Shown piece after piece: positions 9,269 through 28,686 of a stretch of DNA of 64,000 bases (its first letter is position 1; each line of letters opens with the position of its first letter). The notes under the pieces are model-generated. The model searched no databases, was not told the DNA's origin, and saw only the letters and a program-made list of their open reading frames with translations. Source of the stretch: Desulforegula conservatrix Mb1Pa (GTDB lineage Bacteria > Desulfobacterota > Desulfobacteria > Desulfobacterales > Desulforegulaceae); contig NZ_AUEY01000003.1 of assembly GCF_000426225.1 (NCBI RefSeq), forward strand, positions 62,001 through 126,000, given 5' to 3'. Position numbers and translations under genes: made by a program.

Positions 9269-9278
9269 TAATCAGGCC

Positions 9279-13206: not shown

Positions 13207-14694
13207 ATGAAACCAGGAGCTCTCGTAGCAAAATGCTTTATCCTGACAGCAGCTTTTTTTCTTTCCTCTGGATTTACAGGTTTTAAGACCTACACCTACG
13301 ATGAAATTATTAAGGAGCATCCTGACGCTTTATGCGACGCTTCAGGAAATATTCTGAAAGATGGGCCCGGCCCCGGAACCTGTATCCTCAGCGGAAGCGC
13401 AGGCATTGGCGATGCCATAAAAATTGCCCTTAAAAACAATCCTGAAATGCTGATGGCTTCGGCCAGGATTGACAGGGCCGACGCAATGAGAACAGAGGCC
13501 GAGTCAGCATTATGGCCAAAGGCTGGAGTTTATGGCGAATATTCCCAGGGCGATGCTCCGTCCGGATATCTTTTCAAGACAATAGACCAGAGAAAGCTTC
13601 CGCCTGGCACAAATTTCAATGATCCTGGCTGGTATGACAATTATGAATTCGGTGCAAGCGCAGGTGTAAATTTGTATCGCGGTGGTCAGGATATGACACG
13701 AGTCAGAATGGCCGGAATCGAAAAAAAGATTTCTGAAAAGGATCGTCTTGCTGCTGGAAACAGGGTCATCTCTTCGGTTATAAATGCCTATTTTGATTTA
13801 TTTTCTGCGAGGGAATTTGAAAGAATAGCAAAGCAGTCATCTGATACAGTCAGGGAGCAGCTGAGAATTATGGAGGTCAGATTCGCCTCGGGCGGTGCTC
13901 TTAAGTCTGATATTCTTTCCCTTAAAGTTCGGGTTGCAGAGGCTGACGAGGAAATTGTCAAAAGCCGCAACAGGGTTATGATGGCCGAAGCTGCTCTTAA
14001 AAGGGCAATGGGAATGCCGCTTGAAACAAAAATAGAGTTCAAGGAAGCGTCTCTTCCCGCGACTGATAAGCCTGAGAGCTATGAAAAAGCCCTTGAAACA
14101 GCTGTGGCAAAAAGGCCGGAGCTTGAATCCGTAAGGCAGAAGGTGGTTCAGGCAAGAATGTCCCAGGATGTTGCAAAAGGGATGTGGATGCCCAAAGTCG
14201 ATCTGAATGGAAGACTTTATGCGGATTATCCAGATACAAAGTTTGACACAGAAGACGCAAACTGGATGGTTGCAGCCCTCGTCTCATGGGATCTTTTCAC
14301 AGGAAATTACAGAAAAGCCGAGGCTGACAAGGCAAGAGCCAATCTTTATGAATCGCTTGCAGCAAGCAGACAGGCTTTAATGGATATCCAGCTTGACGTC
14401 AAAAACGCTTATCTGAAAACTTCGGAATCAGAAGAAAGATTTAAGGTCGCTGAAAGCGGGGTGTCAATGGCAGAAGAATCGTTAAAGCTCGTAAAACAGC
14501 AGTATGACGGCGGTTCTGTGCCGATTACGAGGTATCTTGAAACAGAATTAGCAAGAAACGGTTCTTTAATACGAAAAGCCTCTGCCCATTATGACAGGGA
14601 AAAGTCAAGGGCTGATATGGCCAGGGCGACAGGCGTCCTTATTAACCTTTTCAATGAAGATGCTGGAGAAGGTAGAGAAAATGAAAAAAAATAA
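13207..14694 (+). CDS. TolC-family outer membrane efflux protein
   Basis: Outer-membrane channel of a tripartite efflux pump, about 495 residues. A signal peptide (about 1-25) precedes two structural repeats with long alpha-helical coiled coils. Typical TolC pieces are the IKIALKNNPEML segment, SAGVNLYRGGQ, and the second-half match AALVSWDLFTGNYRKAE. The start could be GTG at 13201 or ATG at 13207; GGGAG and AAGG lie upstream. It overlaps the membrane-fusion gene by 14 bp. The RND pump follows after an insertion, so the trio should be one exporter. The substrate cannot be read from sequence. Confidence 0.93.
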   Translation: MKPGALVAKCFILTAAFFLSSGFTGFKTYTYDEIIKEHPDALCDASGNILKDGPGPGTCILSGSAGIGDAIKIALKNNPEMLMASARIDRADAMRTEAESALWPKAGVYGEYSQGDAPSGYLFKTIDQRKLPPGTNFNDPGWYDNYEFGASAGVNLYRGGQDMTRVRMAGIEKKISEKDRLAAGNRVISSVINAYFDLFSAREFERIAKQSSDTVREQLRIMEVRFASGGALKSDILSLKVRVAEADEEIVKSRNRVMMAEAALKRAMGMPLETKIEFKEASLPATDKPESYEKALETAVAKRPELESVRQKVVQARMSQDVAKGMWMPKVDLNGRLYADYPDTKFDTEDANWMVAALVSWDLFTGNYRKAEADKARANLYESLAASRQALMDIQLDVKNAYLKTSESEERFKVAESGVSMAEESLKLVKQQYDGGSVPITRYLETELARNGSLIRKASAHYDREKSRADMARATGVLINLFNEDAGEGRENEKK

Positions 14695-26332: not shown

Positions 26333-28117
26333 GTGAAGATTGAGAAAAAAGAAACAAAGATAATTTTTCCTGATGAATTGATGGAAATACTTTCCATGTC
26401 TCCAGCCGAGAACTCCGAAAACTTTGACACCGTTGTCCACTGGAAAAGTATTTTCGTTGGAGGGATTGTTCGTCAGATGTTTGAGTTCAGAGATATATTA
26501 GAAGAGCTTTCAAGGCACAAGGAAGACCTTGGGCTTATGTCCCTTTACGCAGGTTTTTATAATGACCTTTTCACTAGGTTTTGCATCGATCCAATTAAAT
26601 TTCAGACCCAGGGAGCCGTACGATCTTCAAGGGATCCTGACCCCTTTATCGAGCAAAATATATGGATAGAGACTTCATACGCAGGAGCCATAAAGGATCT
26701 GTGTTCTCATTTCATGGATGGAGATTCCTTCAGTTATGAAATGGCCGAGGAATTTTGTGCTTCGGAGGAAGGTCAGGAGTTCCTTAAAAAGAAAATGCTT
26801 GAGTTCGCATGGCTTGAATACAGATATCATTCATATGGATTGTCTCCTTTAAGGGCATTGAGGGAGCTTCTTGAGGCTCTTGTTGTAATGATTACAAGGA
26901 AGCCTTTCACGAAGAAAGATGTCCCGTTCATGAAAAAAGGGATGGATTTTGATGCTTATCTTGCCGAAGGGAAAATAAGGTTTGAGAATCTGTACAGAGA
27001 AGATGCCTTTGATATCGTAAGGTACTGCGAGGACTTTACAGGAGGAAAAATCGGCTGTACTCCATATGAATATGTCGAAGGCTCCCATATGGGCAGCGTC
27101 AGGTTGAGGCATTATTATCTGCCTGATTCGATAAAGTCTAATGGGAAAGTCATATACATGGCAAGCCCCCTGATAAACAAGCCCGAGCTTTTTGATATGG
27201 CAAAGGGCAAGTCAGTCGTCGAGGCCATGCAGGTTCGCGGATATGACATTTATCTTGTCGATCCTGGAAATCCAGGGGCAATGCATACTGATCTTGGTCT
27301 GGATTTTTATGGCAAGACAGTGCATGACGCTTATCTGGATATTATAACGGCAAGAAATCCTGGTCAGGAAATCCTCGTCATGGGTTACTGCATGGGCGGT
27401 ACCCTCGTTCTTCCATATCTTGCAAGGAGAGCGGAAGAGCGCCTTTCAAAAGGGCTTGGGATGGACATTAAAAAGGTTGCCCTGATGGCGGCCCCTGTGA
27501 AATTTGATGATGGTTCCACAGGTCATGGCATGATGAGGGCCTCGATCCGTAAAAATTACAGCAGCTCGGTCATGAACGGACTTTTTGACAATGTTAACAT
27601 TCCTCCCCAGGTGATTGAATTCGGAATGAATGAGATCCAGCCTGGCGTCAGGTATAACGTCAAAAAAGGTTTTTATGAACGAGCCATGTATGAAGGAGCG
27701 ATAAGGGATTCCGCAGACTTTCTTTACTGGCTTTCCCACGGCACAAGGTTCGCCACAAAAGCCCACGGAGAATGGATAGAAAATATTTTTCTCGGCAATC
27801 AGATATTTGAAGGTAAATATGTACTTCCTTCCAAAGACCCTGCCTTTGACGGAAAGCCAGTAAATATGGACATGCTCACTAAAGCCGGAGTTGTTATTTT
27901 TGACTACAGGGGTGACAGAGACCCTATCTCGCCACCAGGGTCATGTGTGGCGAGCGAGACATGGGGAGCGTCTTCTGGCAAGGGAAGCAAATCAACTACT
28001 GCTGCAGGTCTGAACCGTACAATTGAAAAGAATGTCGGCCATATTTTTGTAGTGAGCAAAAAGCTCCTTGCGGATTATATAGGAGAAGTTTCCGAGTTTT
28101 ATGAAGAAGGGGTGTGA
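26333..28117 (+). CDS. phaC: Polyhydroxyalkanoate synthase-like alpha/beta hydrolase
   Basis: 594 residues from a GTG start with AAGGGAGG upstream. The C-terminal two thirds is an alpha/beta-hydrolase fold like PHA synthases. The lipase-type box GYCMGGT holds the nucleophilic Cys, with an Asp in DYRGDRDPIS and a His in NVGHIFVVS. The GYDIYLVDPGNPG strand precedes the box. The first 200 residues are helical and match less well to the usual PhaC N-terminal domain. No phaA, phaB, phaE or phasin gene is nearby, so it could be a stand-alone polymerase or a related hydrolase. The catalytic triad looks intact. Confidence 0.8.
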   Translation: MKIEKKETKIIFPDELMEILSMSPAENSENFDTVVHWKSIFVGGIVRQMFEFRDILEELSRHKEDLGLMSLYAGFYNDLFTRFCIDPIKFQTQGAVRSSRDPDPFIEQNIWIETSYAGAIKDLCSHFMDGDSFSYEMAEEFCASEEGQEFLKKKMLEFAWLEYRYHSYGLSPLRALRELLEALVVMITRKPFTKKDVPFMKKGMDFDAYLAEGKIRFENLYREDAFDIVRYCEDFTGGKIGCTPYEYVEGSHMGSVRLRHYYLPDSIKSNGKVIYMASPLINKPELFDMAKGKSVVEAMQVRGYDIYLVDPGNPGAMHTDLGLDFYGKTVHDAYLDIITARNPGQEILVMGYCMGGTLVLPYLARRAEERLSKGLGMDIKKVALMAAPVKFDDGSTGHGMMRASIRKNYSSSVMNGLFDNVNIPPQVIEFGMNEIQPGVRYNVKKGFYERAMYEGAIRDSADFLYWLSHGTRFATKAHGEWIENIFLGNQIFEGKYVLPSKDPAFDGKPVNMDMLTKAGVVIFDYRGDRDPISPPGSCVASETWGASSGKGSKSTTAAGLNRTIEKNVGHIFVVSKKLLADYIGEVSEFYEEGV

Positions 28118-28129
28118 CCAGTTTTTGAG

Positions 28130-28546
28130 AAGGCCACAAAAAAACAGATTACAGTCATTCCGGCGCAGGCCGGAATCCGGAAGTATTTAAAAATGGCTCT
28201 GTTCCCCTTTGATGTTGAAAACCGAAATAATGAAACTCTTTGTAGCTTTTGATCTTGGGGAACTTTTTGAAAAAAGTTCCCCAAATCCCTCAAAAACTTT
28301 ATGTTTTCATTATTGTCAGACGCAAATGTCCTAAAGTTGTGTATGCACCGTTTCCTTACCTGAAAGTTTTTGCGGAACTTTTTCCAAAAAGCGACCCGCC
28401 GGAGGCAGCTTTTAGATTTGAATATCAAATAGTTATTGTATATATCCTTCTCCGCACTTAAGGGGAACAGAGCCTTAAAAATATAAAGATGCCGTATCAA
28501 GTCCGGCATGACGTAGTTGCCTTTTTTTGGTTTTTGCTAGTCCATC
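28130..28546. repeat. Family A palindromic repeat, copy A6, split by a MITE
   Basis: Left part 28130-28194 carries GTCATTCCGGCGCAGGCCGG. Right part 28475-28546 carries ATGCCGTATCAAGTCCGGC and ends at TCCATCAG. The 280-bp element at 28195-28474 interrupts it, with duplicated TTAAAAAT at each junction. Confidence 0.9.
28195..28474. mobile_element. 280-bp MITE-like element with 15-bp terminal inverted repeats
   Basis: The ends are GGCTCTGTTCCCCTT and AAGGGGAACAGAGCC, exact inverted copies. Both sides are flanked by TTAAAAAT, an 8-bp target duplication. No transposase is encoded. Inside are a GGGGAACTTTTT hairpin and a family B copy at 28362-28410. An 8-bp duplication occurs in families such as IS6 and IS1595, but no parent could be identified. 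Confidence 0.88.
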
Positions 28547-28686
28547 AGTTTTAACATTGATGTGTATTGAGTGCCGGACGGAATTAAAACTGTTTTTGAC
28601 ACTATTCATGGTCTGGAGTATAACTTCCGCCGTTTTATAAGTGTTTAATTTGTCTTTGAAAAAAAAGGCGTAACGCGGAGGTTTCT

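Follow-up and report, generated by a model that had tools for sequence, protein, structure and literature searches.

Insertion sequences of the IS1595 family usually generate 8-bp target duplications and carry one transposase gene, whose product displays a DDE_Tnp_IS1595 domain and, except in the IS1016 group, an N-terminal zinc finger (PMC8101967). Merlin, the eukaryotic relative of the IS1016 group, has GG ends and 8-9-bp duplications (PMC8101967). Here we describe a 280-bp MITE located in a window of 64,000 nucleotides (the whole stretch of DNA that was analysed). Among its closest described counterparts is ISAma5 of the Alteromonas mediterranea plasmid pAMEDUM8_300, which is annotated as IS1595-like and displays the ends GGCTATGTTCTGCTAAATTGTTG / GGCTATGTTCGGATTAACTGTTG with TTTAAAAA on both sides. 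Like the MITE, ISAma5 starts with GGCTATGTTC, has TGTTG just inside and is bounded by an 8-bp A/T duplication (TTTAAAAA); while ISAma5 is autonomous and about 1.0 kb long, the MITE contains no gene. Merlin shares the GG ends and the duplication length with the MITE, although as a eukaryotic element without zinc finger it is a distant analogue only.

The 280-bp element and its insertion site

The initial annotation described a 280-bp element with exact 15-bp inverted ends and a perfect 8-bp target duplication, and the limits it gave proved exact (Table 1). The two arms are complementary at 15/15 positions and TTAAAAAT is found on each side of the element. The exact 13-mer end occurs at two sites in the whole window, both of them being the arms of this element, and the sole ORF overlapping it (136 aa) has no Pfam match. 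The element is short and multi-copy, with terminal inverted repeats and a target duplication but no transposase gene, and thus belongs to the MITE class. Single-strand folding is far better than that of shuffled sequences (z -6.6) because of the inverted repeats, and provides no evidence for an RNA function. Rfam returned only matches to microRNA precursors, which arise by chance from the hairpins.

The insertion site is intergenic, with a gene encoding a PhaC-like alpha/beta-hydrolase (26333-28117) on one side and, from about 28902, a deaminase gene on the other. Once the element is taken out together with one duplication, the rejoined flanking sequence forms a single alignment block across the junction with 41 of the 44 family A copies found in the stretches read, and the continuity of the family A repeat proposed in the initial annotation is thereby confirmed. 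The simplest reading of this one-block alignment is that the MITE inserted into an existing family A copy, and a later arrival of the MITE is supported at the window locus. As a general order of events, the claim that the MITE is the younger of the two does not hold, since the nesting is reversed at C37:1380-1801 (locus L137). There, a 131-bp family A copy with CATACTT on either side separates positions 1-268 of a MITE from its positions 261-283, and family A is the younger element. The opposite nesting indicates that the MITE and family A were active in overlapping periods and that the window locus dates itself only. The ends of family A, GATGGAGTCGCAAAAGTC / GCAAGGTCGCAAAAAGTC, form inverted repeats; family A is probably also a small transposable element. 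Among the genomes searched, the genus and the family are represented by the source genome alone.

Table 1. Coordinates of the features at the insertion locus (positions in the window).
Feature	Positions	Strand	Remarks
Interrupted family A repeat, left part	28126..28194	+	start approximate; alignment of the rejoined flanks with other copies spans the junction
Left target-site duplication TTAAAAAT	28187..28194	.	read from the sequence
MITE, mosaic subfamily	28195..28474	+	280 bp; sister copies C14:44156-44435 and split copy C25:33936-34339
Left terminal inverted repeat GGCTCTGTTCCCCTT	28195..28209	+	inward continuation TGATGTTGAAAA, as at the left end of the relatives' IS1595-type elements
Palindromic module M1	28255..28303	-	inverted relative of M2; 14-bp perfect hairpin 28255-28268/28271-28284
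Palindromic module M2	28360..28406	+	also dispersed alone in the genome
Right terminal inverted repeat AAGGGGAACAGAGCC (reverse complement of GGCTCTGTTCCCCTT)	28460..28474	-	
Right target-site duplication TTAAAAAT	28475..28482	.	read from the sequence
Interrupted family A repeat, right part	28475..28547	+	end approximate; same alignment basis as the left part

A dispersed and partly mosaic MITE family

The element is no singleton. The source genome (4.47 Mb, a draft of 178 contigs, 96.4% complete) contains several dozen relatives, with 54 blastn matches to the 280-bp element, and the 16-nt ends GGCTMTGTTCCCSTTA occur at 113 genome sites with at most two mismatches, as compared to 13 for the reversed control. 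An absence of any other copies of these ends, which the initial annotation had held would speak against its reading, is therefore not what we observed. Per-copy statistics were obtained from 64 genome stretches totalling 366 kb, in which a profile built from 14 copies yields 76 match clusters, with solo internal modules counted among them. A perfect 8-bp duplication flanks 10 of the 29 two-ended copies (0.6% in a swapped-flank control), and 18 of the 29 have a duplication with at most one mismatch (5.9% in the control). The ten perfect duplications consist of 78/80 A+T (2 G/C), while the surrounding stretches are 42% G+C. Clean copies range in size from 140 to 474 bp, and the interiors of some are unrelated to that of the window copy. 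We found no DNA match to the MITE in the plasmid collection and no published description of such a MITE family in the literature library searched.

Several loci display further arrangements. At C10:27226-27611 (L049), a palindromic insert of about 106 bp flanked by CCTTAG lies within a 386-bp MITE that has perfect TTTTAAAA duplications; this nested insert is a third mini-element. Near position 13723 of the same contig (L106), an element with MITE-type ends has another interior, built on a GGAAAACCCTTTT palindrome. At C42:1-360 (L133), an IS200/IS605-like TnpA gene, identified by visual inspection, begins on the inner side of a MITE-type end.

The nearest relative of the window copy is C14:44156-44435 (93%). 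Both match subfamily I across most of their left two thirds, while over the last 65 columns the identity is 95% with subfamily II versus 68% with subfamily I. The switch lies within or close to the shared module M2, and the comparison of the two segments suggests that recombination between subfamilies likely produced the mosaic window copy. In the 366 kb analysed, M2-like sequences are also found on their own at 38 sites. Standalone copies of about 45 nt (AAAGTTTTTGCGGAGCTTTTTTCAAAAAGCGACCCGC...) are seen in the window at 9272, 35708, 52224, 55172 and 56354, and at many other loci. It is conceivable, if doubtful, that the MITE family is a vehicle spreading the ~45-nt M1/M2 module, the dispersed REP-like repeat deriving from dying MITEs, or the reverse.

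Transposases with matching ends in the order and a transposase relic in the source genome

The initial annotation pointed out that the element has no transposase and needs a helper acting in trans; this is supported, and the helper can be assigned by type to the IS1595 family. A scan for MITE ends covering 389 genomes of the order returned 55 sites in the source genome, 29 in G272 (a Deltaproteobacteria MAG, EthSRB1) and 18 in G284, with a reversed control of 0 in each of these three, as well as five sites each in G357 and G385. The G272 ends, GGCTATGTTCCCTTTAAATGTTGAAAAT, agree with the left end of MITE subfamily I at 25 of 28 positions and lead into an intact transposase N-terminal half with an IS1/IS1595 zinc-binding domain (48.9 bits in NCBIfam against a cut-off of 28). 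When genome contigs were scanned for this helper N-half, it was found in essentially G272 alone. In the single-contig genome G244, a MITE-type end lies at the 3' side of an IS1595-family transposase gene whose score with NF033547, the model for IS1595 transposases, is 179 bits (cut-off 75) and which also passes the cut-off of PF12762. Finally, G357 harbours a version that has an internal deletion and measures 679 bp; it is bounded by perfect TTTGAAAA duplications and retains both terminal portions of this transposase.

The zinc finger and the DDE_Tnp_IS1595 domain are thus found across two genomes, the former in the N-half of G272 and the latter (PF12762/NF033547) in the C-half of G244, and the MITE ends match those of the G272 and G244 elements and of ISAma5. 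The ISAma5 transposase is related to this helper type, with 37% over the N-half and 44% over the C-half. A complete helper copy was not assembled in any genome examined, the G272 N-half, the G244 C-half and the internally deleted G357 copy being the only forms recovered. These IS1595-type elements of the same order resemble the MITE in duplication length and left end but contain a transposase gene or fragments thereof, and the MITE interior is unrelated to theirs. Short gene-less elements with MITE-like ends and 8-bp duplications were also identified in G284 (147 bp), G186 (145 bp), G385 and G302 (160 bp) and G357 (158 bp); they differ from the window MITE in interior and length.

IS6 and ISL3 elements both make 8-bp duplications and start with GG, and IS6 ends begin with GGNTCTGTTGC. 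The resemblance of the MITE ends to these could suggest that they come from an element of the IS6 or ISL3 type, a reading we consider barely credible given that the elements with MITE-type ends in relatives carry IS1595 transposases. As helpers, IS6 and ISL3 were rejected, as the source genome has no PF13610 and no PF01610 transposase, respectively.

The kind of insertion sequence that the initial annotation proposed to look for, sharing both the ends and the 8-bp duplications, is thus represented in the order, while the source genome holds a relic only. A search with a composite query (G272 N-half and G244 C-half) retrieved C93:9422-9937 as the sole find at E<=10. This relic has 51% identity, contains six in-frame stops and misses the N-terminal part. 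No recognisable GGCTATGTTCCC end was detected beside it, so that what connects the MITE to the C93 gene is the transposase lineage, not a common end sequence. Inspection of orphan end sites for a transposase revealed only further small elements, copies of family A or an IS200-like gene. In the 178-contig draft, the C93 relic is all that was found of an autonomous partner, which would be in ancestors or relatives.

The source genome also contains a resident multi-copy IS1595 element, mostly as pieces at contig ends (L079-L098, L171-L190). The element has the ends TTTGATTACC..., and in L171 and L173 it adjoins or lies inside MITE or module sequence. It belongs to the same broad family, is present in tens of copies and has A/T-rich insertion sites, all of which would fit a role in mobilising the GGCTMTGTTCCC-ended MITE. 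However, its ends, TTTGATTACCATTTTTACTCCGCC / TCTGATTACCACTCTGCTTC, do not match the MITE ends and its transposase pieces have no tblastn match (E<=0.01) to the helper-type transposase, which makes such a role very improbable.

Altogether, we propose, with a probability of roughly 0.85, that the 280-bp element is a copy of a non-autonomous family that was moved by an IS1595-family transposase and is now stranded. Judging from the ends, the mover would be the transposase lineage ended by GGCTATGTTC...TGTTGAAA, which is ISAma5-like and which we take to be probably of the ISPna2 group from its end type (GGC, 8 bp). The transposase would bind the ~26-bp MITE ends and insert the 280-bp unit at an 8-bp target made up of A and T only, within the pre-existing family A repeat, after which host repair would leave TTAAAAAT on each side. 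Because the only gene of this lineage found in the source genome is a pseudogene, we infer that the helper decayed or was lost there and that the MITEs were orphaned. The main alternative is that the family is still active, the intact helper being missing from the draft or carried on another replicon. The genome is in 178 contigs at 96.4% completeness, and the helper-like elements of G272 are also broken at contig ends; yet transposase fragments of the resident IS1595 element can be recognised at dozens of contig ends, while the helper lineage left only the C93 relic. Besides, the MITE copies are moderately diverged and not fresh (subfamily I copies are 91.5-96.8% identical to their own consensus, and the window copy is 93% identical to its nearest relative). 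We thus regard continued activity as unlikely and favour a stranded family.

Implications for IS1595-type elements

That this is a real MITE family of a known kind, mobilised by an IS1595-type transposase, is well supported. What is new is the family itself, together with its seemingly orphaned state, the nesting with family A in both directions and the mosaic structure, and nothing beyond; how IS1595-type elements work is seen no differently as a result. The family offers a clear example of bacterial MITEs left behind by their helper, whose type could be inferred because the ends are shared with transposase-bearing elements of other genomes. Clean nesting in either direction allows the activity of the two repeat families to be ordered, and IS1595-type elements gain a well-documented MITE family in a deltaproteobacterial order.
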